A program made the position numbers and the translations under genes. Below, in pieces: positions 8,322 to 38,770 of a stretch of DNA of 64,000 nucleotides. Under the pieces are notes generated by a model. The model ran no database searches. It worked only from the letters and a program-made list of their open reading frames with translations, and was not told the origin of the DNA. This stretch comes from Bacteroidales bacterium (GTDB lineage Bacteria; Bacteroidota; Bacteroidia; Bacteroidales; F082): positions 124,001-188,000 of the forward strand of contig JAFGXS010000052.1 of the NCBI GenBank assembly GCA_016936505.1. The letters run 5' to 3'. Position 1 is the first letter of the stretch; each line of letters opens with the position of its first letter.

Positions 8322-8335
8322 GTTTTTCATTTTTT

Positions 8336-8343
8336 CAAAAATA
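8336..8343 (-). promoter_or_regulatory. Candidate -7 element for mpl
   Basis: The minus strand reads TATTTTTG (TAnnTTTG). Transcription would begin only a few bases before the start codon, giving a very short leader. No -33 partner is obvious. Confidence 0.35.
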
Positions 8344-8442
8344 GTCAGAAATAGAAAGCGTTGCATGGTAAGCCTGTTTTTTTAACTTAGTGCCTCGCAG
8401 TTAGTATTTTAAAAAATTTCTATATTTACCCAAACTCAAGAA

Positions 8443-9303: not shown

Positions 9304-9322
9304 TCCGAAAATACTACTTTTG
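9293..9322 (+). promoter_or_regulatory. Promoter for cysH
   Basis: TTG at 9293-9295, a 19-base spacer and TACTTTTG at 9315-9322 match the Bacteroidota consensus. The element overlaps the end of the preceding membrane-protein gene and would give a leader of about 12 bases. Confidence 0.55.
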
Positions 9323-9340
9323 CAATTCAAAATTTAATCC

Positions 9341-10048
9341 ATGATTAGCGATAAAACGATTCTGGAATGGAATGAGCAATTTAATAATGCTGATTCCAGT
9401 GAGATTATTTCATATTTCCTTCATTATTTCAAAGACAAGATTGCTTTTTCCAGTAGTATGGGGCCCGAAGATCAGGTTATTACCCATATGATCAGTCAAA
9501 TTGATAATAGCGCAAAAATTTTCACTTTGGATACGGGCCGACTTTTTCCTGAAACTTACGACCTGATGGATCGCACCAGCAAAAAATATAAAGTAAACAT
9601 TAAAGTTTATTTTCCTGATGCAAATGAAGTAGAAGAAATGGTTGCAAAAAAGGGCATTAATCTGTTTTACGACAGTATTGAAAACCGAAAGGAATGTTGT
9701 AACATCAGAAAAATAAAACCTCTTTTAAGGGCTACACAGGGCCTTGATGCCTGGATTACAGGTTTGAGAAGAGAACAGGCCGTAACACGAAAAAACCTTC
9801 AATGGATTGAGCGGGATGAAAACAATCATCTGTTAAAAATTAATCCTCTTGCACATTGGACAGAAGAGGATGTCTGGGATTATATAAAGCAGAATAATAT
9901 TCCTGTTAATCCGTTACACAAAAAAGGATTTGCCAGCATTGGTTGCCAACCCTGTACACGAGCCATTGCTAAAGGCGAAGATGTACGTGCAGGTCGTTGG
10001 TGGTGGGAGAATCCTGACACAAAAGAGTGTGGGCTACACAAGCGATAA
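9341..10048 (+). CDS. cysH: Assimilatory adenylyl-sulfate (APS) reductase
   Basis: Reduces activated sulfate to sulfite with thioredoxin as electron donor. The nucleotide loop is SSSMGPEDQ (37-45). Cys119-Cys120 and Cys202-x2-Cys205 form the four-cysteine set that binds a 4Fe-4S cluster in APS-type enzymes, and the catalytic cysteine is Cys230 in the C-terminal ECGLHKR. The cluster cysteines argue for APS rather than PAPS as substrate. A TGLRREQ motif (140-146) contacts the substrate. The length, 235 residues, is normal. No ATP sulfurylase or sulfite reductase genes are in this window; a MATE exporter gene starts six bases after the stop. Confidence 0.93.
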   Translation: MISDKTILEWNEQFNNADSSEIISYFLHYFKDKIAFSSSMGPEDQVITHMISQIDNSAKIFTLDTGRLFPETYDLMDRTSKKYKVNIKVYFPDANEVEEMVAKKGINLFYDSIENRKECCNIRKIKPLLRATQGLDAWITGLRREQAVTRKNLQWIERDENNHLLKINPLAHWTEEDVWDYIKQNNIPVNPLHKKGFASIGCQPCTRAIAKGEDVRAGRWWWENPDTKECGLHKR

Positions 10049-24838: not shown

Positions 24839-24988
24839 TTTTGAACCCTCTAGTATTTATTTGTTTTCTAAGAAAAGTAGCTTTTTTACATCCAAAAATT
24901 ACAAGAGTGCGAAGATAAGAAATCGTTTCAAATTGCAAAAGGAGTTGAATATTAATCAATGAACAAATCTACTTTTTTAAGAATAAGA

Positions 24989-25017
24989 AAACCCGTTTAC
25001 AAAATGTAAACGGGTTT
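24989..25017 (-). terminator. Terminator of gdhA
   Basis: AAACCCGTTTAC and GTAAACGGGTTT form a perfect twelve-pair stem with a five-base loop. On the minus strand a T-rich stretch follows. Confidence 0.88.
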
Positions 25018-25045
25018 AAAAATTATCAATTATGAGTTTATGATT

Positions 25046-26383
25046 CTAAATCACACCCTGATCCATCATTGCATTGGCAACCTTCAGGAATCCGGCGATG
25101 TTAGCACCTTTTACATAGTTAACGTATCCATCTTCTTCGGTACCATATTGAATACAAGCTTCATGAATCTGGTTCATAATACCTTTCAGTTTTTCATCTA
25201 CTTCTTCTCTGGACCATGAAAGTTTCATTGAGTTTTGAGACATCTCTAATCCTGAAACAGCAACACCACCAGCATTTACAGCTTTACCAGGACCGAAAGG
25301 AATTTTATTTTTGTGGAATGTTTCAATAGCTTCAGGTGTACAACCCATGTTAGAAACTTCAGCAACAATTTGAACTCCATTGGCAACCAATGCTTTTGCA
25401 TCTTCACCGTTCAGTTCATTTTGTGTGGCACTTGGCATAGCAATATCGCACTTCACTTCCCAGGGTCTTTTACCCGGTATAAACTTTGCTCCTGGAAACT
25501 CGCTGGCATAAGGCTCTACAATATCTTGGTTGGTAGCACGTAATTCAAGCAAATAATCAATTTTTTCGCCACTAATTCCTGCTTCATCGTAGATATATCC
25601 GTCAGGACCCGAAATGGTAATTACTTTACCACCAAGCTCAGTAACTTTTAAAGCTACACCCCAAGCTACGTTACCAAAACCAGAAACAGCTACAGTTTTA
25701 CCTTCAAAAGTATCATCTTTCATTTTCAACATTTCATCAGTGAAATAGGTTCCGCCAAAACCGGTAGCTTCTGGTCGAATAAGACTTCCGCCCCACTCAA
25801 TGCCTTTTCCGGTAAGAACACCGGTATTTTCACGAGCCAGTTTTTTGTACATACCGTACAAATACCCTATTTCTTTTCCGCCGACACCGATATCACCTGC
25901 AGGAACATCAGTTTGAGGACCAACAATTCTCCAAAGTTCCAACATGAAAGCCTGGCAGAAACGCATGATTTCGTTGTCAGATTTTCCTTTTGGGTTAAAG
26001 TCTGAACCACCTTTTCCACCACCCATTGGCAGTGTTGTTAATGAATTTTTAAAAATTTGTTCGAAACCTAAAAATTTCAAAATACTCAGGTTCACACTGG
26101 GGTGAAAACGAAGTCCGCCTTTGTATGGGCCTAAAGCATTATTAAACTGAACGCGATATCCCAGGTTTACCTGAACCTTACCCTGATCATCAATCCACGG
26201 CACTTTGAAAGTCAGAATTCTATCGGGCTCAACAATTCTTTCAATGATTCCAGCAGTTTCAAACTGGGGATTTTCATTTACTACCTCTTCAATGGTTTCG
26301 AGTACTTCGCGTACAGCTTGCAGGTACTCTGCTTCGCCCGGATGTTTTTGCTCCAGGCTGTTCATAATATTTTCTAATTTCAT
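25046..26383 (-). CDS. gdhA: NADP-type glutamate dehydrogenase
   Basis: Assimilates ammonia by reductive amination of 2-oxoglutarate. The 445-residue length fits the hexameric small-subunit NADP class. The substrate pocket shows GGLRFHPSVN and PMGGGKGGSDF with the catalytic lysine; the catalytic aspartate is in VPAGDIGVGG. The Rossmann motif is VSGFGNVAWG (about 235-244), and the later NAGGVAVSGLEMSQNS is family-typical. It is monocistronic, with a candidate promoter at 26431-26459 and a strong terminator. A TGTTG-N5-CAACA dyad over the promoter could be its operator. Confidence 0.95.
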   Translation of the reverse strand: MKLENIMNSLEQKHPGEAEYLQAVREVLETIEEVVNENPQFETAGIIERIVEPDRILTFKVPWIDDQGKVQVNLGYRVQFNNALGPYKGGLRFHPSVNLSILKFLGFEQIFKNSLTTLPMGGGKGGSDFNPKGKSDNEIMRFCQAFMLELWRIVGPQTDVPAGDIGVGGKEIGYLYGMYKKLARENTGVLTGKGIEWGGSLIRPEATGFGGTYFTDEMLKMKDDTFEGKTVAVSGFGNVAWGVALKVTELGGKVITISGPDGYIYDEAGISGEKIDYLLELRATNQDIVEPYASEFPGAKFIPGKRPWEVKCDIAMPSATQNELNGEDAKALVANGVQIVAEVSNMGCTPEAIETFHKNKIPFGPGKAVNAGGVAVSGLEMSQNSMKLSWSREEVDEKLKGIMNQIHEACIQYGTEEDGYVNYVKGANIAGFLKVANAMMDQGVI

Positions 26384-26430
26384 TACTTGTAAGTTTATTA
26401 ACGATGTTTTAACCGTTTCTTAATTTTGGG

Positions 26431-26459
26431 CAAAATTACATCATGTTGTAATGCAACAA
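26431..26459 (-). promoter_or_regulatory. Promoter of gdhA with overlapping dyad
   Basis: On the minus strand TTG (26459-26457), an 18-base spacer and TAATTTTG (26438-26431) fit the consensus. Inside it, TGTTG (26444-26448) and CAACA (26454-26458) form a five-base dyad with a five-base spacer. A regulator bound there would block the -33 region. The rest of the 356-base gap (26384-26739) is AT-rich with no gene; it holds a perfect 14-base AT-type palindrome at 26562-26575, which may be chance, and the palindrome at 26715. Confidence 0.5.
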
Positions 26460-26714
26460 TCGTTTTCAACCAAAAAAGACTTCCTCATACAAGCAATTTA
26501 AAACTAATAAATTTACAAAATTCAAATTACTGATTATTAATAATTTAAAACGAATAACTATTGAAATATATTTCATGTATTGTTCAATTTCAGACCCAAA
26601 AAGTCAAAAACAGTAAAAAACTTACAATAGTTTACGTAATTCACTTAAGATGCAAAAAGCAGCTTCACAGTGAATAAGTTTTTCCTTCTTTTATATCAAG
26701 AAAATAAATATATT

Positions 26715-26729
26715 GTTCAAAATTTGAAC
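26715..26729. promoter_or_regulatory. Palindrome ahead of the DNA glycosylase gene
   Basis: GTTCAAA-A-TTTGAAC is a perfect seven-base-arm palindrome ending ten bases before the ATG of the SMUG2-like gene. It resembles a repressor operator, but the regulator is unknown. Confidence 0.4.
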
Positions 26730-26739
26730 CGTTTAATAC

Positions 26740-27408
26740 ATGCCTGTTTCACAGAAAATACTACAGTTTTACAACGAACTAAAAATCATAGAACAGCTCC
26801 CTGTAGGAGTTGAAGTCTTGAATCCTTACCTAAATGAAGAAACCTTTAATATTTGTGAACAGTTTTATGGTAAGTATTATAGCGATCAAACCAAAAGGAG
26901 GATTATTTTTGGAATCAATCCCGGCAGGTTTGGAGCAGGTATTACCGGTGTTCCGTTTACCGATCCGGTTCAATTAGAAAAATCTTGCGGCATCCGAAAT
27001 AATTTTGAAAAAAAAGCTGAATTGTCGTCAGAGTTTGTCTATCTATTAATCAATCAAATGGGTGGACCTGAGCACTTTTATAAACATTATTTCATTGGTT
27101 CTGTTAGTCCCTTAGGCTTTGTCAAAGATGGAAAAAACTACAACTATTATGATGATCTCAAATTGCAGAAACAATTAAAATCATTTATTCTCAAATCAAT
27201 GATTCAGCAAATATCATTAGGTATTGATACAAAAAAATGCTTTTGCCTAGGACAAGGGAAAAATTTCGACTACCTTATGATGCTGAACAGTAAGCATAAA
27301 CTTTTTGATGAAATCATACCTCTTCCCCATCCACGATGGATCATGCAATACAGAAGAAAACAATTAGATAATTTTTTACATGACATAAGCCGACAGCTTA
27401 GCACATAA
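26740..27408 (+). CDS. SMUG2-like uracil-DNA glycosylase
   Basis: A 222-residue member of the uracil-DNA glycosylase superfamily, closest in pattern to SMUG2 (DUF4918). The first active-site motif is GINPGRFGAGITGVPF (58-73), like the SMUG GMNPGPFGM-x-QTGVPF. The second is PHPRWIMQYRR (about 195-205), where SMUG1 has HPSPRN. It should excise uracil or related deaminated or oxidised bases to start base-excision repair. It is a single gene with a palindrome directly upstream. Whether it is inducible is unknown. Confidence 0.82.
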   Translation: MPVSQKILQFYNELKIIEQLPVGVEVLNPYLNEETFNICEQFYGKYYSDQTKRRIIFGINPGRFGAGITGVPFTDPVQLEKSCGIRNNFEKKAELSSEFVYLLINQMGGPEHFYKHYFIGSVSPLGFVKDGKNYNYYDDLKLQKQLKSFILKSMIQQISLGIDTKKCFCLGQGKNFDYLMMLNSKHKLFDEIIPLPHPRWIMQYRRKQLDNFLHDISRQLST

Positions 27409-27412
27409 TTCA

Positions 27413-27436
27413 TGACAAAACTGTCAGAATTTTTTC
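27413..27436 (+). terminator. Weak terminator after the glycosylase
   Basis: TGACA and TGTCA form a five-pair stem around a four-base loop, followed by GAA and a run of six T residues. The stem is short, so termination may be partial. Confidence 0.4.
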
Positions 27437-27567
27437 TCTCAAACTCTTTTATAAATATACAATTTCACTTGTTTCTATTTGATTAGCTGTTAACCGATTT
27501 ACACAGATTGTTTATGGCATAATTTCTGATAAAACGGGGTCATGTTTCACAAAAAAATAAAATAATC

Positions 27568-27912
27568 ATGGTATTACCAACTAACTTAAAACACATAGCA
27601 ACTGCAGCCGATCTTGAGCAGTTAGTCAACGAAAATGAAAATGTAATGGTTTGCTGTGGCCGAATGGGCCCAATGTGTGTTCCTGTTTATGCTTCAATGG
27701 AAGAACTGGAAACAGAATATACCAATGTTCAATTCAGAGATATGTTATTCGATAGTCCTGAAGCCAGGGTAATTCGTGAGCTTCCTGAATGCCGTGGATT
27801 CATGGGACTTCCATTTACCGTTTATTTCAAAAATGGTAAAGTTGCAGCAGCAACCAGCAGCATCCAAACCAAAGAACAAATCACAGAAATTCTGGATCGC
27901 GAATTTAAATAA
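27568..27912 (+). CDS. Atypical thioredoxin with a C-x6-C active site
   Basis: A 114-residue thioredoxin-fold protein. In place of WCGPC it reads MVCCGRMGPMCVP: Cys29, Cys30 and Cys37, so the candidate redox pair is Cys30 and Cys37 with six residues between. The cis-proline loop is present (MGLPF, Pro82), and a further cysteine (Cys75) lies just before it. The rest keeps the fold (strand VQFRDMLF, helix KEQITEILD). The start is ATG 27568. It lies 77 bases ahead of trxB on the same strand, so it is probably TrxB's dedicated substrate. It could instead work as a sensor or chaperone if the pair does not form a disulfide. Confidence 0.75.
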   Translation: MVLPTNLKHIATAADLEQLVNENENVMVCCGRMGPMCVPVYASMEELETEYTNVQFRDMLFDSPEARVIRELPECRGFMGLPFTVYFKNGKVAAATSSIQTKEQITEILDREFK

Positions 27913-27989
27913 ACCTTTACGGTAAAATGACAATATAAGGAGAAGCACTTTCACTTTGGATTGTGGTTCTCTTTTTAAAACAATTCACC

Positions 27990-28934
27990 ATGAATAAAAA
28001 TCAGTTTGATGTTATTGTATTGGGTGGCGGTGCAGCAGGATTAACTGCCGGAATTTACTTATCAAGGGCCAAAGCCAAAGCATTGGTTTTGGATACCGGA
28101 ATGCCAGGCGGTCAAATGATTTTAACCTATGAAATTGCAAACTACCCCGGAATTGAAAAGACAACAGGGTATCAGCTTTCCGCAACGATGGCCAAACAAG
28201 CCAAAAGTTTTGGTTGTGAGGTTAAAAGTAATGTTAAGGTAAAATCCCTACAATTGGAAGGAGAAACCAAATCGGTAACACTTGAGAATGGAGATATTTT
28301 TGAAGCTCCGGCCATTATTTTAGCTACAGGAGGTCGTTCCAGAATGCTTCGAGTCTCAGGAGAAGAAGAATTCAAGGGACGTGGTATATCTTACTGTGCT
28401 ACCTGTGACGGAGACTTTTTCCAGGACAAAGAAATCATAGTTGTTGGTGGTGGAAATTCAGCGCTGGAAGAAGCTGTTTCTCTTACAAAATATGCCAGTA
28501 AGGTTACCGTTCTTCATGAATTCGACCACTTCCAGGCATTTGAGCATGCTGTTGATGAAGCCAAAGCCAATCCAAAAATTGATTTCATTATGGAATCACA
28601 TATCACCGAGTTTGTTGGAGAAAACCAATTAAATAAAGTGAAATACAAGAACCTTAAAACCGGTGAAATCAGTGAAAAAGAAATTGATGGTGTATTTATC
28701 TTTATCGGATATGAAGCCAACACCGATTTTTTCAAGAATGGTCCGCTGGAATTAAATCAATGGAATGAAATTATTTCTAACGAAAGCATGCAAACCAATC
28801 TTGAAGGAGTATTCACTGCCGGAGACTGTCGTGCCAAACGCTACAGACAAATTACAACTGCGGTCTCAGATGGCACAATCGCAGCTTTAAATGCACTCAA
28901 TTATATCCATCAAAAAGAAACTCAGCCGGTATAA
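27990..28934 (+). CDS. trxB: Thioredoxin-disulfide reductase
   Basis: Passes electrons from NADPH through FAD to thioredoxin. The FAD motif is LGGGAAGLTAGIY (11-23), the NADPH motif VVGGGNSALEEA (about 151) and the redox centre CATC (Cys136-Cys139). The C-terminal FAD contact TAGDCRAKRYRQI is intact. From ATG 27990 it is 314 residues, the usual length; a GTG at 27963 would add nine poorly fitting residues. It is paired with the CX6C thioredoxin gene and followed directly by a terminator. It presumably also serves CysH indirectly through thioredoxin. Confidence 0.95.
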   Translation: MNKNQFDVIVLGGGAAGLTAGIYLSRAKAKALVLDTGMPGGQMILTYEIANYPGIEKTTGYQLSATMAKQAKSFGCEVKSNVKVKSLQLEGETKSVTLENGDIFEAPAIILATGGRSRMLRVSGEEEFKGRGISYCATCDGDFFQDKEIIVVGGGNSALEEAVSLTKYASKVTVLHEFDHFQAFEHAVDEAKANPKIDFIMESHITEFVGENQLNKVKYKNLKTGEISEKEIDGVFIFIGYEANTDFFKNGPLELNQWNEIISNESMQTNLEGVFTAGDCRAKRYRQITTAVSDGTIAALNALNYIHQKETQPV

Positions 28935-28950
28935 AACCGGCTGCTTTTTT
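28924..28950 (+). terminator. Terminator overlapping the end of trxB
   Basis: AGCCGGT and ACCGGCT form a seven-pair stem followed by GCTTTTTT. The trxB stop codon lies in the loop, so translation reaches the hairpin. Confidence 0.82.
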
Positions 28951-28989
28951 ATCATTTAGTTTCCCAAATACCATATTTTGAAATATCTC

Positions 28990-28997
28990 TACATTTG
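28990..28997 (+). promoter_or_regulatory. Candidate -7 element for the DUF819 gene
   Basis: TACATTTG matches TAnnTTTG 18 bases before the chosen ATG, and lies across the alternative TTG start at 28995, arguing against that start. Confidence 0.45.
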
Positions 28998-29015
28998 CTT
29001 CCCAAAAAAAGCATA

Positions 29016-30167
29016 ATGGAAATTCATTCACTCATTCATCCCGATCAACAATGGATCTTGTGGGCAATATTAGTTTTCGGCGCCACTTTTGGTGTCTGGG
29101 CTGAACAGTACACACGATGGGGTAAAAAAGTATCAGGAGTCATTGTCAGCATTTTGTTTACATTTATTTTATCCAATCTAACCATCATTCCCAGCAAATC
29201 TGAAACCTACGATATGGTATGGGCATATTTGGTTCCATTGGCTGTCCCACTCCTATTGTTCAAAGCCAATATCAGAAGGATTATTAAAGAAGCCGGTCCA
29301 ACTTTAATTGCTTTTGGAATTGGCGCTGTCGGAACCGTTATTGGAACAATCGTTGCTTTCAGAACCATTCCTTTAGGGGAAGAAGGTTGGAAACTTGCCG
29401 GAATTTTTTGTTCAACTTACATTGGCGGATCAATGAATTATGTAGCAAGTTCCCAAGCTCTCCAGTTGCACTCGGGTGATTTGCTTACGGCAGGCGTTGC
29501 TGCTGATAACCTCGTTATGACAATATACTTCCTCATTCTCTTTGCTCTGCCATCCATGGGATTTTTAAAAAAACATTTCAAGAACAATCATCAGGAAGAA
29601 GCCGATAAGTTAAGTCCTTCAGACTTGTCAATAGAAGAAATCAGCGAAAATCCCGGAATGCTGGATTTAGGAAAATCATTAAGTATTGGACTTATTATAG
29701 CGGCATTAGGATTTTATTTACAGGATATTATTCAAATAAAAGGAAGTGCCATCCTTATCATTACTGTGATGATAATATTAATTGCCAGCCTCTTTCCAAA
29801 ACAAATGAACAAAATTAAAGGAGCCGATATGATAGGTTCCTTCTTTATGCAAATCTTTTTCGCAGCTATTGGAGCAAGCGCCAATATTCTTGTCGTACTA
29901 AAAGTAGGTCCCATGCTTTTCTTTTTTGCTGCGCTTATTTTACTTGTTCACCTTCTTTTTATTTTAATTGGTGGAAAACTTTTAAAACTTGATATTGCCG
30001 AAATTGTTATTGCATCTAATGCCAACATGGGTGGCCCAACAACTGCTGCTGCTATGGCTGTCGGAAGGCGGTGGAAATCATTAGTAATTCCAGCTATTCT
30101 TTGTGGAACACTCGGCTACGCAATTGCTACCTTCATTGGAGTCGGAGTTGCCTATTTACTTCATTAG
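29016..30167 (+). CDS. DUF819 family membrane protein
   Basis: A 383-residue integral membrane protein of the DUF819 family (YjcL-like), with about ten helices. The family is thought to be transporters, but no substrate is established. Family-like signatures are VPLAVPLLLFKANIRRI, GGSMNYVASSQAL and the C-terminal SNANMGGPTTAAAMA, which resembles a re-entrant loop of a carrier. It is a single gene bounded by the trxB terminator and the FMN riboswitch leader. A TTG seven codons upstream is less likely than this ATG. Confidence 0.82.
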   Translation: MEIHSLIHPDQQWILWAILVFGATFGVWAEQYTRWGKKVSGVIVSILFTFILSNLTIIPSKSETYDMVWAYLVPLAVPLLLFKANIRRIIKEAGPTLIAFGIGAVGTVIGTIVAFRTIPLGEEGWKLAGIFCSTYIGGSMNYVASSQALQLHSGDLLTAGVAADNLVMTIYFLILFALPSMGFLKKHFKNNHQEEADKLSPSDLSIEEISENPGMLDLGKSLSIGLIIAALGFYLQDIIQIKGSAILIITVMIILIASLFPKQMNKIKGADMIGSFFMQIFFAAIGASANILVVLKVGPMLFFFAALILLVHLLFILIGGKLLKLDIAEIVIASNANMGGPTTAAAMAVGRRWKSLVIPAILCGTLGYAIATFIGVGVAYLLH

Positions 30168-30233
30168 AACCTATAACAAGCTAAGTATTTCACTGAATTG
30201 TCTGATACATTGAAAAAAGTACAGATTAGTCTC

Positions 30234-30263
30234 TTGTTTTCTAATAAGATTACAATACTTTTG
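30234..30263 (+). promoter_or_regulatory. Promoter of the FMN-riboswitch leader
   Basis: TTG (30234-30236), a 19-base spacer and TACTTTTG (30256-30263) fit the Bacteroidota consensus and place the transcript start at about 30269, just before the aptamer. Confidence 0.65.
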
Positions 30264-30272
30264 CACCGACAT

Positions 30273-30402
30273 TCTTCAGGGCAGGGTGCCTTGTCATGAG
30301 ACAAGAATTCCCGACCGGCGGTTAAAGCCCGCGACTCCCGAAATATCGGGACTGATTCCGTGAAATCCGGAAGCCGACAGTAATAGTCTGGATGGGAGAA
30401 GA
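30273..30402 (+). promoter_or_regulatory. FMN riboswitch (RFN element)
   Basis: The conserved RFN core is directly readable: AGGGCAGGGTG (30278-30288), AATTCCCGACCGGCGGT (30306-30322), AGCCCGCGA (30326-30334), GAAGCCGACAGT-type core near 30370-30381, and AGTCTGGATGGGAGAAGA (30385-30402). P1 closes with TCTTC/GAAGA. The P2 loop is enlarged by an inserted CTTGTC/GACAAG hairpin. P4 (CCCG/CGGG) and P5 (TTCCG/CGGAA) are intact. The element senses FMN and, when bound, normally lowers expression of the gene downstream, here a TonB-dependent receptor. The region between aptamer and ATG (30403-30513) contains no strong intrinsic terminator. The sequence before the promoter (30168-30233) shows nothing notable. 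Confidence 0.95.
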
Positions 30403-30513
30403 TGTAAAATTGTGTATGTTGCTTATTGACATCCTTGTCAGTATGAACATCGGATTGTATATACTCCTTTGCCCTGATTTGTTTAAGGGTTCAAAACAAA
30501 TAAAAATTATTTT

Positions 30514-33084
30514 ATGAAAAGGAGTTCTCTATTTCTGTTTATCATTGTCTTTCATGTAACCGGTTTTGCTCAAAATTTAGTTAGGGGAAAAATTATTGAC
30601 CAGGAAACAAAACAACCAATCCCTCTGGCTCAAATCTTTACCAATAAAAGTTCAACAGGAACTATTAGCGACAGTAGCGGTTTTTTTCAACTAAAAATAA
30701 ACAGCAATAAAACTTTACTGACAATTGAGAGCATAGGATTTCAAACTAAAAATATTCTTTGCAGGGTAACGGGTAACACTACGGATCTCGGAACCATTTA
30801 TCTGGCTCCCAAATCATATACTTTAAATGAAATAAACATTACATCCGGGTTGGCTAACAAAAATGTTGACCCTGTAAATGTGACAACATTATCAGCCCAA
30901 ACTATTAAAAGTCAATTGGGAGATCAACCTCTACCCCTTTCCTTACAATCTGTTCCCGGCGTTTTTAGTATTCGTGATGGTGGCGGCAGTGGTGATGCAA
31001 AAGTAAGTATCAGAGGTTTTAAACAAAATAATGTCGGACTCCTGCTCAATGGAATTCCCATCAATGGTATGGAAAATGGATTAGTATACTGGAGCAACTG
31101 GTTAGGGCTTAATGATGCAACAGCTGAAATTCAGGTTCAGCAAGGCCCCGGACTGGCCAATATGGCTACTGATGCCGTTGGCGGAAGCATCAATATTATC
31201 ACCCGAACCAATAACAAGCCCAAAGGTGGTTCTTTCAGTTACCAGATGACTGATTACGGAAATACGAAGTTGACATTAGCCTTGAACACAGGCACTATGA
31301 AAAATGGTTGGAATTTTAGTTTTCTGGGTTCATATTTTAATGGACCCGGCTATGTTGATGCAACTTACGTACACGGGTTTTCCTATTTTTTCTCCGCAAA
31401 CAAGCAAATCAATAATAGGAACCATATTAACGTAACTCTGATGGGATCACCTCAACACCATGGTCAAAGAACGTTAAGGCTAACATACAATGAAATGGAG
31501 CAATATGGATTAAAATATAATAAAGACTGGGGTAGTTTAAATGGGAATATTATGAATGCATCCGAAAATTTCTATCATAAACCGTTTTTAAACATCAATC
31601 ATGATTTAACTATCAGCAAACATCAATATCTTTCTAATTCATTTTTTGTTAGTTATGGCAACGGTGGTGGAAAGTGGTCTGAGACTTTCAATTATGCCCC
31701 TTCTATTTTTCAGTTTACAAATTCTTCAGGACAAATCGACTGGAATGAAATATACAATTTAAATGCAAATAATCAAACTCCATACGTTTTGGCCAATGGC
31801 GACACTGTTTCAGGCTATTCACTCAGAGTAGGAACAAATTATCTGTCAACTTTTATTACGACGGGTTTTATGAGTACTTACAAAGAGAAATTAAACAGGA
31901 ATCTCACCTTCACTGGCGGAATATATTATCGGTACTTAAACTCTTACGTAAGAGAACAGATCTCAAATCTCATGGGAGGTCAGTTTTATATAGAAGATTA
32001 CGGATGGTCGTTAAGTAGTGTTGCGGGTCGGAACCAAATAAAAAAGGTAGGCGATATAATTAAAACAGACAACAATTCAATCATTCAGCAAGCTAATGCA
32101 TATTCGCGATTGATTTTTGAAAATGAAAAATCCAAAGCATATATTGCACTTGGAGCAAACAACAGGTGGTATCAAAGGATAGACCGCTTCAATTATGTTA
32201 CAAATCAAAAAAGTATAATGGTTAAAAAAATCGGTTTCGATTTGCGTACCGGATTAAATTACCATGTATCACCAAGCAGTCAGCTGTATTTCAATACTGC
32301 TTATATTTCGAAACCTCCGTTCTTCACTTATGTATTTGGTAACTATACCAATATTCCTGTTCAGAACCTTAAAAATGAAATCATTAAAACCATTGAACTG
32401 GGCTACAGATTTACGAAAAATTCTTTAAACGGAAATGTAACAGTATATTATACCAGGTGGGACAATGTATCTTTACTAAGCGACCAATATGTTCAGCTGG
32501 CAAATAATCAGCAATCACGGTCAATGATCAATGGGCTAAACTCACTTCATAAAGGAATTGAAGGAACAATTAAGTATAATATTTCCGAAAAGTTTACTTT
32601 GGGAGCCCTTTTTTCGTTGGGTGATTATAAATGGTTAAACAATGTGCAGGCAACACTGTTGAATAACAACAATGTTGTAACCGACACCATCAATGTTTAT
32701 GCCAAAGGACTCTACGTTGGAGGAACAGCTCAGCAACAAATCGGACTGAACATAGACACTCGTATTGCAAATACTTTCAACCTGAAACTTCAATGGATGC
32801 ATTATAGCAAAGTTTTTGCCGATTTTAACCCTCTAACCAGAAATGATGCACAGAAGAAACTTCAACCTTACGAATTTCCTGAGTACAGTGTACTGAACGC
32901 TTATTTATCAGTGCCTTTTAAAATATCAAATCTTCCTGCTTTGCTTCAAATTAACGGTTATAATTTACTTAACAAAAAATACATTGTTTCAGGATTAGAT
33001 GGTGCTGAAAGTAATTTACAAACTTTTACTGGCTTTTGGTCTTTTGGAACCAATTTCAATATCATGCTAAAGCTATATTTTTGA
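30514..33084 (+). CDS. TonB-dependent outer-membrane receptor, flavin-regulated
   Basis: An 856-residue receptor with signal peptide (1-19), a carboxypeptidase-regulatory-like N-terminal domain (about 22-105, starting VRGKIIDQETKQPIPLA), a plug domain (about 120-225, with VSIRGFKQNNVGLLLNGIP and AVGGSINIIT) and a long beta-barrel ending in a terminal phenylalanine (MLKLYF). It should take up a scarce ligand using energy from TonB-ExbBD. Its only visible regulatory signal is the FMN riboswitch, so the likely cargo is riboflavin, FMN, FAD or a flavin complex. No SusD partner or inner-membrane flavin permease is adjacent. It stands alone, followed by 283 bases of AT-rich DNA. Confidence 0.92.
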   Translation: MKRSSLFLFIIVFHVTGFAQNLVRGKIIDQETKQPIPLAQIFTNKSSTGTISDSSGFFQLKINSNKTLLTIESIGFQTKNILCRVTGNTTDLGTIYLAPKSYTLNEINITSGLANKNVDPVNVTTLSAQTIKSQLGDQPLPLSLQSVPGVFSIRDGGGSGDAKVSIRGFKQNNVGLLLNGIPINGMENGLVYWSNWLGLNDATAEIQVQQGPGLANMATDAVGGSINIITRTNNKPKGGSFSYQMTDYGNTKLTLALNTGTMKNGWNFSFLGSYFNGPGYVDATYVHGFSYFFSANKQINNRNHINVTLMGSPQHHGQRTLRLTYNEMEQYGLKYNKDWGSLNGNIMNASENFYHKPFLNINHDLTISKHQYLSNSFFVSYGNGGGKWSETFNYAPSIFQFTNSSGQIDWNEIYNLNANNQTPYVLANGDTVSGYSLRVGTNYLSTFITTGFMSTYKEKLNRNLTFTGGIYYRYLNSYVREQISNLMGGQFYIEDYGWSLSSVAGRNQIKKVGDIIKTDNNSIIQQANAYSRLIFENEKSKAYIALGANNRWYQRIDRFNYVTNQKSIMVKKIGFDLRTGLNYHVSPSSQLYFNTAYISKPPFFTYVFGNYTNIPVQNLKNEIIKTIELGYRFTKNSLNGNVTVYYTRWDNVSLLSDQYVQLANNQQSRSMINGLNSLHKGIEGTIKYNISEKFTLGALFSLGDYKWLNNVQATLLNNNNVVTDTINVYAKGLYVGGTAQQQIGLNIDTRIANTFNLKLQWMHYSKVFADFNPLTRNDAQKKLQPYEFPEYSVLNAYLSVPFKISNLPALLQINGYNLLNKKYIVSGLDGAESNLQTFTGFWSFGTNFNIMLKLYF

Positions 33085-33329
33085 AACTATTTTATTGGAG
33101 CATCACGAATTATTTTACACCAAATCCATATTTTTTAGAAAAAGATCTTTTTTCAGCATCGAAATAGCAATAAAACATAACTTTTTCCTAAAATTTATTA
33201 ATAATTCTTAGAAAAATATAATTTCATAAATTATTGAAATACAAATAATTGTTAAAAACAGTCTATACAAAGTGTTCAAAGCTTTATTTCAATTAATATA
33301 TACTTAATATAATGAGGTAGGTGATTGAA

Positions 33330-33337
33330 TATATTTG
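33330..33337 (+). promoter_or_regulatory. Candidate -7 element for the Oar-like receptor
   Basis: TATATTTG matches TAnnTTTG 30 bases before the ATG. No canonical -33 is seen. The intergenic region also holds a GATC-centred A/T palindrome (33139-33152) that could be a weak transcription stop after the first receptor. Confidence 0.45.
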
Positions 33338-33367
33338 CCGCATAAAATTTAATAAATTCTATTTCTT

Positions 33368-36300
33368 ATGAAAAAGTATTATTCTTTAATTGCAATGTCC
33401 ATAATGATGCTCTGGAGCATTATGGCTTTTGGACAGGGTTCCACGACGGCTGCTTTAACCGGTGTGGTTACTGATGCAAAGGGTGCAACTTTACCGGGAG
33501 CTACAATTCAGGCTATTCATCAGCCTTCTGGTACAGTTTATGGCGCTATCACCAACGACAAAGGTCGTTATTCCATTCAGGGTATGCGTGTCGGCGGACC
33601 CTACACAATCGTTATCTCATATGTTGGTTTTACAACAGTAAAGTATAACGATGTTCAGCTTCCACTGGGTGAAACTTCTGTTTATAATGCAGTTTTAAAA
33701 GAAGCTACTAGTCAATTAAATGAGGTTGTTGTTAGTGCAAATGTAGGAGTAAAAAATTCTGCCGGTGGTGCTGCAACTAATTTCAAAGCAAGCCAAATTG
33801 CTGATGCACCAACTGTAGATCGCAATATCTATGATGTTGCTAAGTTATCACCAATGGTTCAGATTACCAAATTAGGTGGTATTTCTATTGCCGGTTCAAA
33901 TAACCGTTACAACTCTTTCCAGATTGACGGTATGGTAAGTAATGACGTATTTGGTCTTGCCGGTTCGGGTACCAATGGCGGTCAGACTGGTGCTAACCCA
34001 ATTTCACTTGATGCTATTCAGCAAATTCAGGTACTTATTTCTCCTTTTGATGTTCGTCAGGGTGGATTTACCGGTGGTGGTATTAATGCTATTACCAAAT
34101 CAGGTACCAACCAGTTCCATGGTTCAATTTATACTTACTATACAGACCAAAGCATGTATGGAAAATGGAGCCAGGTTAGTGAAAGTGTTTCTAAACTTGA
34201 AAAAGAATCAACCAAAACTTTAGGTTTCTCTGTCGGTGGCCCTATCATTAAAGATAAACTTTTCTTCTTTGTAAATGCTGAACAAAAAACGAATTCTTAC
34301 CCATCAGATTACTATGCAGGTTATAGAACCGGTTACATTTCTACAGATGAGGCACAGGTTATTCTCAACAGATATTCATCTATAACAGGGTTCAGTGACA
34401 GTTATGCCAGACGTAATCTTGATACTAAAGGCTTGTCTGTATTGAGCCGCATCGACTGGAATATTAACAAGAAAAACAAATTCTCATTACGCTATCAGTT
34501 GAATGATTCTTATAAAGATGTATATGGTGCCAGCTCATACACCTACTATTTCGACAACAGTGGTTACAAAATGAGAAACAAAACCAATTCTATCGTTGCC
34601 GAATTGAACTCAACCATTAGTAATTCAGTTTACAACGAAGCTCGTGTTGGTCTTACAATGGTTCGTGACAACCGTGATGTTGCTTACCTTGCTCCTAACG
34701 TTTACATCAAAAACCTTGGTGGTTCTTTTGACTCAAATACAAACTTGTGGAGTCAAGGATCTGTTAGTTCATATATTGGTACTGAAAACTATTCAGGTGC
34801 AAATGCTTTGAATCAGGATATTTATGTTATCGAAGATAACCTTTCATGGTACAAAGGAAACCACACCTTTACTGTTGGAACACATAATGAGATTTACAAA
34901 ATGTACAACTTGTTTATTCCTTCTAGTACAGGTTCATATTATTACAACTCTTTGAATGACTTCCTGAATGACAATGCATACATGTTTACCTACCAGTATT
35001 CTGATTATAATCTGACCGGTACTTACAGATGGGGTGCAACCGTTAAAGCCGGTCAATTTGGATTTTATGCTCAGGATAAATGGAGTGTGAATGAAAATTT
35101 TGATTTGACCTACGGTATACGTTTTGATATTCCAACTTTCTTCAATAAACCTACTGCTAACCCCGAATTCAACCAAAGTACATATGCAACTAACTACAAT
35201 GTACAGGTAGGAGAAGTTCCTTCAACAAAAGTGATGGTTTCACCTCGTATCGGATTCCGTTTGTACACCGATGACAGCCACAAAACTTTGATCCGTGGCG
35301 GTACAGGTATTTTCACCGGCCGTGAACCTTTTGTTTGGTTATCCAACGTATGGAGCAATACCGGTGTTGAAATGAAAGGGACTACCATTACCAGCAATGT
35401 ACCTTCTTTTGCTACCTATGGTGATGACCCTGTAGCAGCGATGAATTCAGCTGCCGGTTCTGCTTCAAAACCAACCATTAATACCGTAAGTAAAAACTTC
35501 AAATATCCACAGGTATTCCGTACAAACCTTGCTTTGGAACAACAGTTATCAAACGGTTGGAAAGTTACCTTGGAAGGCTTATTCTCAAAAACAATGAATA
35601 ATGTTTGGTGGGAAAACCTTGCTCTTACTGACAATGGTCAAAAAGTTTATGCTGTTAGTGCAGACGTTCCTAATTCAGGTACCATTTACTGGTCAAGAGA
35701 TGCCGGAAGCTACTATGCAATCGTAAACCTCCAAAACACAAACAAAGGTTACACATACAACCTAAGTGCTCAGATTGAAAAGACCTTTAAATTTGGTTTA
35801 GATGTTATGGCCAGCTATACTTTTGGACATGCTTATTCTGTAAATGATGGAACCAGTTCAATTGCATACTCTAACTGGAAATATAACTATGCTGTTAATC
35901 CAAACGATCCTAATGCACTTTCTTATTCAATGTTTGATGTACCAAACCGTATTTTAGCAGTTGTAACTTATACCTCACCTAAATACTGGGGAAGTAAATT
36001 CAGTACAGTTGCTTCATTAGTTTATAACGGATTTAACGGTCAACGTTACAGCTTAACAATGAACGAAAGCAGAGACTTCAACAACGACGGTCAATATGGC
36101 AACTCTTTGTTGTACATTCCTACTACCGGCGAACTTGCACAGATGTCATTTGCTACTGAAGCAGATCGTACCAATTTTGGAAGCTGGATTGCAAGCGACA
36201 AATACGCCAAAGATCATCGCGGACAGTATGCTGTACGCAACTCAAACATGGCTCCTTGGGAAAACCATGTTGACCTGCATTTTGCAGAAGATTTCTATTA

Positions 36301-36544
36301 TTTAGATGGAAAAGACAATAAAATCTCTTTGACATTTGATGTTTTAAATATTGGTAATTTGATTAATCACAAATGGGGTACTTCTTATTCATCAGCTTAC
36401 AATGAACAAATTCTTAAAGTAACTGCTCTGAATAATGTTAATGGTAATATGATTCCTACTTACTCATTCCAGGGTAACTCAGTCAGCAAAAGTGATATCT
36501 TTAGCCGCTGGCATGCACAAATTGGTTTAAGATTTACTTTCTAA
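33368..36544 (+). CDS. Oar-like TonB-dependent outer-membrane protein
   Basis: A 1058-residue receptor of the Oar (OmpA-related adhesion/TonB) type: signal peptide (1-22), carboxypeptidase-regulatory domain (about 25-115, LTGVVTDAKGATLPGATI), plug (about 120-245, with NRYNSFQIDGMVSND and GGINAITKSGTN) and a Tyr- and Asn-rich beta-barrel ending in LRFTF. Oar proteins in this phylum move peptides or proteins, or act at the surface; the ligand cannot be named here. Codon use looks like that of a highly expressed gene (frequent GGT, GTT, AAC), in contrast to the flavin-regulated receptor. It is a single gene with a strong terminator and no SusD neighbour. Confidence 0.88.
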   Translation: MKKYYSLIAMSIMMLWSIMAFGQGSTTAALTGVVTDAKGATLPGATIQAIHQPSGTVYGAITNDKGRYSIQGMRVGGPYTIVISYVGFTTVKYNDVQLPLGETSVYNAVLKEATSQLNEVVVSANVGVKNSAGGAATNFKASQIADAPTVDRNIYDVAKLSPMVQITKLGGISIAGSNNRYNSFQIDGMVSNDVFGLAGSGTNGGQTGANPISLDAIQQIQVLISPFDVRQGGFTGGGINAITKSGTNQFHGSIYTYYTDQSMYGKWSQVSESVSKLEKESTKTLGFSVGGPIIKDKLFFFVNAEQKTNSYPSDYYAGYRTGYISTDEAQVILNRYSSITGFSDSYARRNLDTKGLSVLSRIDWNINKKNKFSLRYQLNDSYKDVYGASSYTYYFDNSGYKMRNKTNSIVAELNSTISNSVYNEARVGLTMVRDNRDVAYLAPNVYIKNLGGSFDSNTNLWSQGSVSSYIGTENYSGANALNQDIYVIEDNLSWYKGNHTFTVGTHNEIYKMYNLFIPSSTGSYYYNSLNDFLNDNAYMFTYQYSDYNLTGTYRWGATVKAGQFGFYAQDKWSVNENFDLTYGIRFDIPTFFNKPTANPEFNQSTYATNYNVQVGEVPSTKVMVSPRIGFRLYTDDSHKTLIRGGTGIFTGREPFVWLSNVWSNTGVEMKGTTITSNVPSFATYGDDPVAAMNSAAGSASKPTINTVSKNFKYPQVFRTNLALEQQLSNGWKVTLEGLFSKTMNNVWWENLALTDNGQKVYAVSADVPNSGTIYWSRDAGSYYAIVNLQNTNKGYTYNLSAQIEKTFKFGLDVMASYTFGHAYSVNDGTSSIAYSNWKYNYAVNPNDPNALSYSMFDVPNRILAVVTYTSPKYWGSKFSTVASLVYNGFNGQRYSLTMNESRDFNNDGQYGNSLLYIPTTGELAQMSFATEADRTNFGSWIASDKYAKDHRGQYAVRNSNMAPWENHVDLHFAEDFYYLDGKDNKISLTFDVLNIGNLINHKWGTSYSSAYNEQILKVTALNNVNGNMIPTYSFQGNSVSKSDIFSRWHAQIGLRFTF

Positions 36545-36562
36545 TCAATCGATCTTATTCTT

Positions 36563-36600
36563 AAAAAAAGAGTGGTTTTTAAAAAACCACTCTTTTTTTT
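36563..36600 (+). terminator. Terminator of the Oar-like gene
   Basis: AAAGAGTGGTTTTT pairs with AAAAACCACTCTTT, followed by a run of T residues. Confidence 0.88.
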
Positions 36601-36624
36601 AACGTATATTTTTGAAATTACAGG

Positions 36625-36632
36625 TAACTTTG
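36625..36632 (+). promoter_or_regulatory. Candidate -7 element for the phosphodiesterase gene
   Basis: TAACTTTG matches TAnnTTTG 48 bases before the ATG. A run of 12 A residues (36658-36669) lies in the resulting leader. Confidence 0.4.
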
Positions 36633-36679
36633 AATTCTGATTTGTGACCACTTTCATAAAAAAAAAAAATTCATTTCAC

Positions 36680-37891
36680 ATGAAAAAAATCCTCATAGTA
36701 TTATTAGCTATTTCCTTCATTATTTCGGGATGTAATTACACTCAGAAAAAAGCAAATAAAAAACCCTATTTAGTAGTATTGTCATTAGATGGTTTCCGGT
36801 GGAATTATCCACAGATGTATAACACTCCTGTTCTTGACTCACTGAAAAAAGCCGGTGTTTTTGCAGAAATGATTCCCTCCTTCCCCAGCAAAACCTTTCC
36901 TAATCATTACACTCTTGCTACAGGTTTGTATCCCGATCACCATGGGATTGTTATGAACCAGTTTTATGATCCGCAACTGAAAGAGAATTACAGCATCAGC
37001 GACAGGAAAACGGTAAGAGACGGTAAATTTTATGGTGGTGAACCCATCTGGAATACAGCAACAAAACAAGGAGTAAAGAATGCAGTATTGTTTTGGGTAG
37101 GTTCTGAAGCAAATATTCAGGGCATGCACCCTGAAAAATGGTATCCTTACAATCAAAAACTGCCTTTCACTTCACGAATTGACACCTTGGTTCAGTGGTT
37201 ATCTTTACCAGTTGACCAGCGCCCGCATCTCATCATGTGGTATTATCCTGAACCCGATGGCACGGGACATCATTTCGGACCGCGTTCTGAACAAGCCAGG
37301 CAAATGGTGGAACAACTCGACAACTGGTTGGGTCAATTCTTTACTGCAATGAGAAAGCTTCCTGAATTTAATCAGCTAAACTTTATCATCACTTCCGATC
37401 ACGGCATGCAAACACTGTCTCCCGAAAGAAACATAATCCTTGATAAATTCATAGATACCGCTGATCTGATCCGATATTCAGGAGGAAATCCTGTGTACAA
37501 CATTGGAGTAAAACCCGGCAAACTGGAAGCTGTTTATAAAGCCTTAAAAAGGGTTCCACACCTGCAGGTATGGAAACATGATAGTTTGCCTGAAAGACTC
37601 CATTACGGACACAATCCGAGAACTCTGGATTTAACCCTTGCAGCCGATCCAGGCTGGAGCCTTTACTGGTCGTGGAAAGTAGGAACAGAAAACGGAACAC
37701 ATGGCTATGACAATTCAGACAGAAAAATGCACGCTATTTTTTATGCCGCCGGTCCTGCTTTCAAAAAAGATTTCAATGCAGCTACTTTCCCCAATGTGGA
37801 TGTTTATCCGTTGATGTGCAAAATACTGGGGCTAAAACCGGCTCCCAACGATGGAAATCTGTCAGGAGTTGAAGACCTGTTGAAAAAATAA
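36680..37891 (+). CDS. Nucleotide pyrophosphatase/phosphodiesterase (ENPP-like) lipoprotein
   Basis: A 403-residue alkaline-phosphatase-superfamily enzyme. The lipobox ends at Cys18 (IISGC), so it is anchored in the envelope. Catalytic Thr72 lies in SKTFPNHYTLATG. Metal ligands are Asp37 (SLDGF), the aspartate and histidines of PDGTGHHFGP, the SDHGM pair near 249 and the late HGYDN histidine. This is the ENPP pattern, so it should cleave phosphodiester or pyrophosphate bonds of nucleotides or related molecules outside the cytoplasm. A GTG at 36644 would give a non-signal N-terminus and is rejected. Confidence 0.9.
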   Translation: MKKILIVLLAISFIISGCNYTQKKANKKPYLVVLSLDGFRWNYPQMYNTPVLDSLKKAGVFAEMIPSFPSKTFPNHYTLATGLYPDHHGIVMNQFYDPQLKENYSISDRKTVRDGKFYGGEPIWNTATKQGVKNAVLFWVGSEANIQGMHPEKWYPYNQKLPFTSRIDTLVQWLSLPVDQRPHLIMWYYPEPDGTGHHFGPRSEQARQMVEQLDNWLGQFFTAMRKLPEFNQLNFIITSDHGMQTLSPERNIILDKFIDTADLIRYSGGNPVYNIGVKPGKLEAVYKALKRVPHLQVWKHDSLPERLHYGHNPRTLDLTLAADPGWSLYWSWKVGTENGTHGYDNSDRKMHAIFYAAGPAFKKDFNAATFPNVDVYPLMCKILGLKPAPNDGNLSGVEDLLKK

Positions 37892-38053
37892 AACTCATCC
37901 CGGTTCCATTCCTGTGATATTGAGAGGTACGCCATACTTTTCGTTAGTCGCAGGAATGAAACTTTTATTTTTTTGATGATCCGTCAGCATTGGGTAATAA
38001 TATGTCTCATTCATTTTTACTACCAGAAAAAAACAAATCAGGCTTATCTCAAA

Positions 38054-38220
38054 GTTGCAAAGTGCCGAAAAAAACATTTTCAGCTCTTCGCAAGACTGCA
38101 AAACACCGAAAAAAAACAATTTCACCCTTTCGCAAGGTTGCAAAACGCTGAAAAAAACCGTTTTCACCCTTTTGCAAAGCTGCGGAAGGCCGAAAACAAA
38201 TATTTTTACTCATTGCAGGG
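38054..38220. repeat. 42-base tandem repeat, about four diverged copies
   Basis: Units begin at 38065, 38106, 38148 and 38190 (spacing 41, 42 and 42 bases), with a partial unit before the first. Each has the pattern (C)CGAAAAAAA - TTTTCA - CTTTCGCAAG - TTGCAAAA. On the minus strand the units translate to repeated Phe-Phe-x-Val-Leu-Gln-type 14-residue blocks in open frames without a credible start. The array lies in the 466-base gap (37892-38357) between the phosphodiesterase and the ThrRS-like editing gene; the flanks (37892-38053 and 38221-38357) contain no gene I can support. The copies abut, with no unique spacers, so it is not a CRISPR array. Confidence 0.8.
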
Positions 38221-38357
38221 CTTACCATATCTTTCAATACTATTATGTTTTGTAAACTTATGCCAGCATTTCCCTGCAATTTTTAATTCTCTATCTTTGT
38301 CCCTGATGTATAATTCACAGGAATGAAACAATCATGAATGTGCAGAAATTTTAACAG

Positions 38358-38768
38358 ATGAAATTATTGATGATCTACTGCGAACAGTTTCGCTATAATC
38401 CCGTTAGTAAAACACTTGAAGACTTTCCTGAAATTACTGAAGGCGGGAGCTTTAATCGTGCTTTGGTTGCGTTCATACAAACCGAAGAAGCCGATATGGA
38501 TGATGAGAAAAATATTGAAACCAAAATGGTGAAAAACCTGAAATGGGCCGCTAAAAAAAACAACACACAAAAAGTTGTTTTGCATTCCTTCGCTCATTTA
38601 TCGGAGAGCAAAGCCGATCCTCACTTTACAAAGCACCTTTTTGATTTAGTTGAGAACCGAATGAATAATGCTGATTACAATTGTGAGCAAACTCCTTTTG
38701 GCTATTTTCTTGACATTGATGTTAAGGCACCGGGCATATCACAAGCCAGAATATTCAAGAGTATATAA
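38358..38768 (+). CDS. Free-standing archaeal-type threonyl-tRNA synthetase editing domain
   Basis: A 136-residue protein whose whole length matches the editing domain found at the N-terminus of archaeal ThrRS (the DTD-like fold, PF08915). Signatures are KVVLHSFAHLS (72-82), with the histidines of the substrate pocket, and TPFGYFLDIDVKAPG (about 116-130). The archaeal domain hydrolyses serine wrongly attached to tRNA-Thr. There is no catalytic synthetase domain here, so it would act in trans as a deacylase. It sits alone, convergent with the next gene, which ends two bases after it. Confidence 0.82.
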   Translation: MKLLMIYCEQFRYNPVSKTLEDFPEITEGGSFNRALVAFIQTEEADMDDEKNIETKMVKNLKWAAKKNNTQKVVLHSFAHLSESKADPHFTKHLFDLVENRMNNADYNCEQTPFGYFLDIDVKAPGISQARIFKSI

Positions 38769-38770
38769 AA

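Follow-up and report, generated by a model that had tools for sequence, protein, structure and literature searches.

We report a flavin mononucleotide (FMN) riboswitch that immediately precedes a gene for a TonB-dependent outer-membrane receptor in a Bacteroidales bacterium (lineage F082, GenBank assembly GCA_016936505.1). The stretch analysed, from here on the window, comprises 64,000 nt (contig JAFGXS010000052.1, positions 124,001 to 188,000, forward strand), and all coordinates are those of the window. The receptor is very probably an FMN-repressed importer of flavins in bacteria that have become riboflavin auxotrophs, because the pairing of riboswitch and receptor recurs in related genomes, the riboflavin synthesis enzymes RibH and RibB have been lost from the receptor genomes, and the receptor gene and the ribDEBAH operon replace each other behind the same riboswitch. 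These results, together with a promoter box, the receptor architecture and alternative pairings of the leader, were computed here. They point to a previously unrecognised TonB-type route of flavin import and to many uncultured Bacteroidales that are apparently unable to make vitamin B2. Outer-membrane flavin uptake had already been proposed in a preliminary description made from the letters of the window alone, and the recurrence, the gene losses and a locus exchange within one genus support that proposal.

The riboswitch-receptor unit

The unit consists of the following features.
30234–30263, plus strand: promoter of the Bacteroidota type, with TTG at 30234–30236, a 19-base spacer and TACTTTTG at 30256–30263 (sequence and pattern search)
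30268–30407, plus strand: FMN riboswitch aptamer, or RFN element (RF00050 and our own covariance model R1)
30463–30525, plus strand: predicted expression platform (ViennaRNA folds and a shuffle test; prediction only)
30514–33084, plus strand: TonB-dependent outer-membrane receptor of 856 aa, the proposed flavin receptor (Pfam, AlphaFold2, Foldseek, clade)

The preliminary description had claimed a complete RFN aptamer with its own promoter ahead of the receptor and had foreseen a strong Infernal match at about 30273–30402. The Rfam model RF00050 indeed matches 30268–30407 from end to end (model positions 1–138) with 91.2 bits, above the gathering score of 66.2, and an E-value of 1.4e-19. It is the sole match in the 93 contigs of the genome. 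Model R1 scores the aptamer at 117.1 bits, with this aptamer being among its 32 training sequences. A spacer of 106 bases separates the aptamer from the start of the receptor open reading frame (ORF).

The promoter ends four bases before the aptamer, and its boxes follow the Bacteroidota promoter consensus. By itself the two-box string is not rare, with three instances in the window against 2.34 expected, so the weight of the assignment rests on placement before the aptamer and not on rarity. Of 74 related loci, 70 have a TAnnTTTG box in the approximately 60 bases that precede the aptamer (two further loci of the 76, with fewer than 60 bases of upstream sequence, were left out), compared to 3.4% of 2829 control windows and 4.9% of shuffles. 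The distance is 3–9 bases in 46 of those 70 loci. The complete pattern TTG-N17-21-TAnnTTTG occurs in only 24 of the 74 loci, and in 0.2% of the control windows.

According to Pfam, the receptor combines a CarbopepD_reg_2 extension with Plug (PF07715) and TonB_dep_Rec_b-barrel (PF00593) domains, the latter two over the cut-off, and a signal peptide was recognised by eye. It had been described as a receptor without SusD. This is in line with the score of the SusC model TIGR04056 (52.4 bits against a cut-off of 368.25), which marks it as non-SusC, and with the lack of a SusD domain among the four locus proteins scanned with Pfam. An AlphaFold2 model based on 61 aligned members reached a pLDDT (predicted local distance difference test) of 86.2. 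Its top PDB match in Foldseek was PqqU with pyrroloquinoline quinone (PQQ; E = 4.4e-42); many siderophore receptors score almost as high, and VIA-align gave Z scores of 38.3 for Fiu, 37.9 for BtuB, near 38 for PiuA and 32.1 for PqqU. Structural matches of such a predicted model establish the fold of a receptor, not its ligand. Residue L104 is invariant, E106 is invariant in 14 members and nearly so in the 61, and both precede the plug in a region that presumably is a TonB box. Import energised via TonB is presumed for this protein. Being an outer-membrane barrel, it belongs to none of the known riboflavin transporter families, which are inner-membrane carriers or components of energy-coupling factor (ECF) or ATP-binding cassette (ABC) systems.

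Recurrence of the pairing in related genomes

An even draw of 198 genomes from the same order as the window contained 41 with an RF00050 match, 40 of them over the cut-off. This search used stricter filters; a laxer rerun on the 38 genomes without RibH (see below) returned the same 16. The first gene after each riboswitch, in the window and 40 other loci, was classed by tblastn. Behind the 40 riboswitches over the cut-off it was ribD of a ribD-E-BA-H operon 16 times, ribB eight times, the receptor 15 times and a contig-cut protein once, while the sub-threshold match in genome G379, which is outside the 40, precedes no ribD, ribB or receptor gene. The 15 receptors, the window's included, are homologous over their length; the other 14 are 31–48% identical, and that of G291 is cut by a contig end. 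The contig-cut protein (G391, locus L095, 5160–5917) is a 168-aa CarboxypepD_reg fragment, Oar-like by eye, that directly follows the riboswitch in a genome lacking RibH and RibB.

A profile of 14 riboswitch-linked receptors retrieved 273 encoding stretches from named genomes, of which the best 80 are considered here, hence the closest relatives only. Using a covariance model built from 32 of the 40 aptamers over the cut-off, the riboswitch was found in 75 of these 80 loci. Four of the remaining five begin less than 20 bases from a contig end, and L148 truly lacks it. To judge by title, all the named genomes are metagenome-assembled genomes (MAGs), assigned to Bacteroidota or so-called Chlorobiota. 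A check for the same aptamer-receptor pair elsewhere, proposed in the preliminary description, was thus positive both in the order sample and in the named set. A plasmid search with the receptor gene and its leader yielded just short matches within the aptamer, in three records. In an even draw of 247 genomes from the class, the riboswitch was present in one, the window's own, under stricter filters by which weak matches are lost. This rarity fits the reported lack of the FMN riboswitch in Bacteroidaceae (PMC3766115).

A quick tree, built from 122 receptors, puts 78 of the 79 riboswitch-linked ones on one side of a branch with a support of 100 in the SH-like approximate likelihood ratio test (SH-aLRT), and L148 is the single riboswitch-less member of that clade. 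The label "riboswitch-linked" requires three changes on the tree, compared to a shuffled mean of 35.6. Left out of the tree were L204 (no receptor ORF by the ORF rule used), L159 (719 aa) and L059 (a fragment). The riboswitch is missing from all 21 more distant homologues as far as the upstream flank reaches, namely 837–1500 bases in 20 of them and 17 bases in L043.

Apparent loss of riboflavin synthesis

RibH (PF00885) is encoded in 160 of the 198 order genomes and absent from 38, and these 38 include all 15 receptor genomes as well as G391. The contrast, 15 of 15 receptor genomes without RibH compared to 23 of the 183 others, is highly significant in a Fisher test that is uncorrected for kinship (p = 1.2e-12). 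RibB (PF00926) is absent from all 16 genomes and present in nine of the 22 other RibH-less ones. RibF (PF01687) is kept by all 16, and by 28 of 29 RibH-less genomes examined, as would be expected if the organisms import riboflavin. In the named set, RibH is absent from 48 of the 50 genomes searched (49 with the riboswitch plus L148), near-copies such as L155, L180 and L186 among them. These represent 50 of the 80 loci; the other 30 are the four at contig edges, eight whose contigs equal in length those of genomes already searched, and 18 beyond the 50 covered.

In the window, visual inspection of the ORFs of 24000–40000 revealed no rib gene, and genome-wide searches found neither RibH nor RibB. 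The remark that no biosynthesis gene accompanies the aptamer is thus confirmed and extended to these two functions in the whole genome. The preliminary description had also concluded that free flavin must be scarce enough to demand active uptake. Active uptake is supported, whereas scarcity is a less specific reason than vitamin auxotrophy, the likely one given that all 15 receptor genomes are without RibH and RibB.

The contrast is also seen within three pairs of closely related genomes, which differ in riboswitch target and RibH together. In family f1, the window genome (G000) has the receptor and no RibH, whereas G345 has RibH and a riboswitch followed by ribDEBAH; the other pairs are G320 and G422 (genus g211) and G369 and G254 (family f77). 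A ribDEBAH target implies RibH by construction, and the informative part is the absence of RibH beside the receptor.

Exchange at a shared locus

The two genomes of genus g211 permit a direct comparison. By blastn, G320 and G422 share the upstream gene (82% identity), the intergenic stretch (94%), the riboswitch (91%) and a downstream second receptor (89%); between them stands the receptor gene in G320 and ribDEBAH in G422. An NlpC/P60 gene resembling the one upstream in G347 was found at nine of 41 loci (window counted), at rib and receptor loci alike. Since most genomes have RibH, uptake more likely replaced synthesis than the reverse.

Receptor and synthesis genes can also adjoin: contig-cut receptor homologues lie a few kb downstream of a riboswitch-ribDEBAH unit at L059 (G360:C7, 38645–40093) and L068 (G422, 7626–9452), in genomes that have RibH.

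Predicted expression platform and mechanism

In the free fold of the window leader (ViennaRNA, −77.0 kcal/mol), the aptamer segment UCAGGGCA (30276–30283) pairs with UGCCCUGA (30470–30477). With five P1 pairs imposed (−73.4 kcal/mol, a cost of 3.6 kcal/mol), ACUCCUUU (30463–30470) pairs with AAAGGAGU (30518–30525) and the start codon lies inside the hairpin. The complementarity of the platform segment to the aptamer strand was reached by none of 20 shuffles. Among the 76 leaders, a segment complementary to the aptamer 5′ strand (often GCCCTGAAG versus CTTCAGGGC) was equalled by at most one of 20 shuffles in 50 cases and by more than one in the other 26. Terminator-like hairpins between aptamer and gene occur in 41 of the 76 leaders and in 17 of 760 controls, which were obtained by mononucleotide shuffling of 200 bases each, in many cases more than the stretch scanned. 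By the same hairpin rule no terminator was found in the window leader. As predictions, these folds and hairpins fit a scheme in which FMN would repress translation in the window and transcription in many relatives.

From these results we infer a flavin cargo, repression by FMN and dependence on TonB, and suggest the following course of events. The organism, having apparently lost riboflavin synthesis, would retain RibF to turn imported riboflavin into FMN and flavin adenine dinucleotide (FAD). At low cytoplasmic FMN, the 5′ strand of the aptamer would pair with the downstream UGCCCUGA, leaving the start codon open and allowing synthesis of the receptor. With FMN in good supply, the aptamer would close and release UGCCCUGA, allowing a downstream hairpin to form that shuts the receptor off; this hairpin would enclose the start codon in the window and be a terminator in about half of the relatives. 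The receptor would bind riboflavin, FMN or FAD outside the cell and import it with energy from TonB. A permease would then perform the inner-membrane step, and, less certainly, neighbouring ENPP-type and PhoD-like enzymes would trim FAD and FMN.

Neighbouring genes and the possible form of the flavin

The unit is flanked by the following genes.
33368–36544, plus strand: Oar-like outer-membrane barrel of 1058 aa, a recurrent second gene (Pfam OMP_b-brl_4, CarboxypepD_reg and Plug)
36644–37891, plus strand: ENPP-type nucleotide pyrophosphatase/phosphodiesterase (PF01663, E = 2.1e-96), with a lipoprotein-like signal by eye
28995–30167, plus strand: DUF819 protein, probably a polytopic membrane protein by sequence, ending 100 bases before the aptamer
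27568–28934, plus strand: thioredoxin-like and thioredoxin-reductase-like genes, upstream and outside the riboswitch unit

Downstream genes were counted wherever the receptor is followed by at least 5.5 kb, which is the case at 54 loci; shorter loci and L204 were left out. A relative of the Oar-like barrel is present at 17 and a second TonB receptor at 18 of the 54. Residues Q171 and W339 are common to linked and second receptors and rare in other receptors. ENPP-type relatives occur within the next six ORFs at 28 loci, all of which have an Oar-like barrel or a second receptor. A PhoD-like phosphatase lies downstream at 15 loci, and the median gap between the ENPP and PhoD-like genes is four bases (13 loci). 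The upstream neighbours of linked receptors differ between loci.

The gap between receptor and second gene measures 145–416 bases (median 238.5), with a TAnnTTTG box at 17 of 40 loci including the window, where the 283-base gap holds a possible promoter box TATATTTG at about 33330–33337. Owing to these long gaps and boxes, the downstream genes may be transcribed separately. Oar-like barrels may themselves be FMN-regulated, as hinted by locus L095 of G391. At L065 (G346, 7321–8093), ORFs of 86 and 136 aa occupy the positions of the second gene and the ENPP gene in relatives; the 136-aa ORF partially matches PF01663, and both are apparent remnants of a decayed cluster. TrxB-like genes were seen at 25 and thioredoxin-like genes at 21 of the 76 riboswitch-receptor loci.

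A better start for the ENPP gene of the window is the ATG near 36680. Residues 42–414 of its product align with venom phosphodiesterase, likewise with ENPP1 and ENPP3, and the former alignment takes in the motifs KTF, DHG and HGYDN, which we take to be catalytic and metal-binding in this family. Trimming of FAD via FMN to riboflavin by the neighbouring ENPP-type and PhoD-like enzymes is therefore plausible.

A more specific form of the flavin-importer explanation, compatible with it, is that the nucleotide itself is the cargo: FAD would be captured, an ENPP-type enzyme would split it into FMN and adenosine monophosphate (AMP), and a PhoD-like enzyme would dephosphorylate FMN before the inner membrane. 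FAD is about as large as porins admit, or larger, and the frequency of both enzyme genes and the alignment with ENPP1 and ENPP3 argue in the same direction. Against it, 26 of the 54 loci have no ENPP gene, the downstream genes may possess a promoter of their own and serve phosphate or nucleotide scavenging, and KTF[PVT]N around the expected nucleophile fits 21 of 32 ENPP relatives. We regard this form as not far short of an even chance. An entire salvage system is a tentative proposal that we would sooner doubt than assert: an FMN-repressed receptor taking FAD, FMN and riboflavin, ENPP-type and PhoD-like enzymes stripping these to riboflavin in the periplasm, RibF rebuilding the cofactors, and the whole unit having spread by displacing ribDEBAH downstream of the same riboswitch.

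Candidates for the inner-membrane step

According to the preliminary description there was no inner-membrane permease nearby, which holds only if the polytopic DUF819 protein, 100 bases from the aptamer, is none. As a general partner the DUF819 protein is unsupported, since it stands upstream of the riboswitch at three of 76 loci only (the window and its two nearest relatives, L137 and L138). A PnuC-family gene, a possible PnuX riboflavin carrier, is present in 31 of the 38 RibH-less genomes and was not assignable to flavin: of 30 such loci collected, 20 were given to Rfam and none had an FMN or thiamine pyrophosphate (TPP) riboswitch. In the window genome this gene has, by eye, a thiamine-binding-like ORF on one side and a NadR-like kinase gene on the other, in a wider stretch without any Rfam match. 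A major facilitator superfamily (MFS) protein (cluster 15, nine loci) was rejected, as one or two genes intervene between it and the receptor, and no transporter was recognised by eye near the RibF gene of the window genome. The sole direct hint comes from G369 (L084, 6861–10671), where the riboswitch precedes a shorter receptor without the N-terminal extension, followed 23 bases on by a nucleoside-H+ symporter gene (PF03825); this may be a pair for outer and inner membrane.

Weighing the explanations

The receptor might transport a different cargo, such as an iron chelate, haem or another cofactor, with FMN merely serving as a proxy for the redox or nutritional state. Its fold is generic, siderophore receptors matching about as well as PqqU and BtuB, and cross-talk between iron and riboflavin regulation exists in Vibrio cholerae (PMC6041382, PMC5816637). 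Such a cargo would leave unexplained why RibH and RibB are lost in 15 of 15 genomes and why the receptor replaces ribDEBAH at one locus, and we consider it improbable. Alternatively, the rib operon could have been lost, leaving an orphan riboswitch by chance before a nearby receptor gene, as the riboswitch and flanks common to both versions of one locus might suggest. Yet 78 of 79 linked receptors belong to one clade despite different upstream neighbours, the promoter box (70 of 74) and the complementary platform segments (50 of 76) recur, and the riboswitch is found at none of the 20 distant homologues with upstream sequence, which makes this origin very unlikely. Equally slim is the chance that flavin is imported as an extracellular electron shuttle or signal, a role in which flavins assist Shewanella (PMC6041382), since loss of RibH and RibB with retention of RibF speaks for a nutritional need.

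Several observations weigh against flavin import by auxotrophs. Thirteen of the 198 genomes have neither RibH, RibB nor the riboswitch, hence auxotrophs need not carry the receptor; one of them, G293, shares a genus with the receptor genome G401. They are presumed to be auxotrophs with another supply route or incomplete assemblies (G249, G279, G290, G293, G317, G319, G327, G335, G365, G397, G419, G421 and G429). The genome-wide survey of synthesis genes comprised RibH and RibB, two of the rib functions, and absences are provisional, as the named genomes are MAGs, the others are mostly drafts and the window genome is 91.84% complete. G461 has both riboswitch-ribDEBAH, on a 4.2-kb contig, and riboswitch-receptor with a 719-aa ORF in place of the usual approximately 856 aa (L159, L256), and is either a mixed bin or an intermediate. 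The receptor genome G453 has RibH, located away from any riboswitch in the stretch examined. Two receptors are less clear cases: that of G369 forms a long branch of unsure placement, and the linked receptor of G295 groups with some of those second receptors that are frequent behind the first, a hint that second receptors, too, may be flavin-related. No inner-membrane flavin permease was found among the candidates checked (PnuC family, DUF819, MFS, surroundings of RibF). Riboflavin reportedly diffuses into E. coli in a porin-dependent manner (PMC12319065), so active import is not always needed. Finally, the gene of the closest precedent, the thiamine receptor OMthi, showed no significant response to thiamine in RNA-seq (PMC5613172).

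If flavin is the cargo, competition for vitamin B2 would take place at the outer membrane, and a large group of uncultured Bacteroidales would rely on neighbours for it, which may be of practical use in attempts to culture them. FMN riboswitches would gain a target class. A receptor clade without assigned function would receive a candidate ligand.

Comparison with known systems

Established substrates of TonB-dependent import are iron chelates, haem, vitamin B12 and, on the evidence of mutants, thiamine. PqqU (YncD) of E. coli, the best Foldseek match, is likewise a TonB receptor for a small redox cofactor; it differs in its ligand, PQQ, shares 14% identity with the window receptor, and we know of no riboswitch associated with it.

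Transport genes behind FMN riboswitches, as here, comprise RibU, PnuX/RibM, ImpX, RibN, RfuABCD, RibXY, RibZ and RibV (PMC4418817), and RibXY of Roseiflexus castenholzii makes up for a missing rib operon (PMC3766115). A survey that covered 1133 genomes and 842 FMN riboswitches has no outer-membrane receptor in the accessible rows of its Table 1, and the terms "TonB" and "outer membrane" are absent from its main text (PMC4418817). An outer-membrane riboflavin receptor is likewise not listed in the accessible part of a B-vitamin reconstruction of gut genomes (PMC6593275). In the open-licence literature, as far as accessible, no earlier report links a TonB receptor gene to an FMN riboswitch, papers containing both terms treating each apart; a mention in Vitreschak 2002 is possible.

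Cofactor riboswitches in front of TonB receptors are already known. BtuB is controlled by a cobalamin riboswitch (PMC11162775); its barrel resembles that of the window receptor (Z 37.9) at about 14% identity in the structural alignment, and riboswitch and ligand (B12) differ. Caldithrix abyssi is reported to have a pair of a TPP riboswitch and a receptor (PMC5317091). Nearest to our case is OMthi (BT2390) of Bacteroides thetaiotaomicron, in the same phylum, a TPP-riboswitch-linked receptor whose role in thiamine import is backed by mutants (PMC5613172). There, the host also makes thiamine and PnuT is the inner-membrane partner, whereas here the riboswitch is of the FMN class and riboflavin synthesis is apparently lost. 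What is new in the present system is the FMN riboswitch on a TonB receptor, with flavin as the probable cargo.

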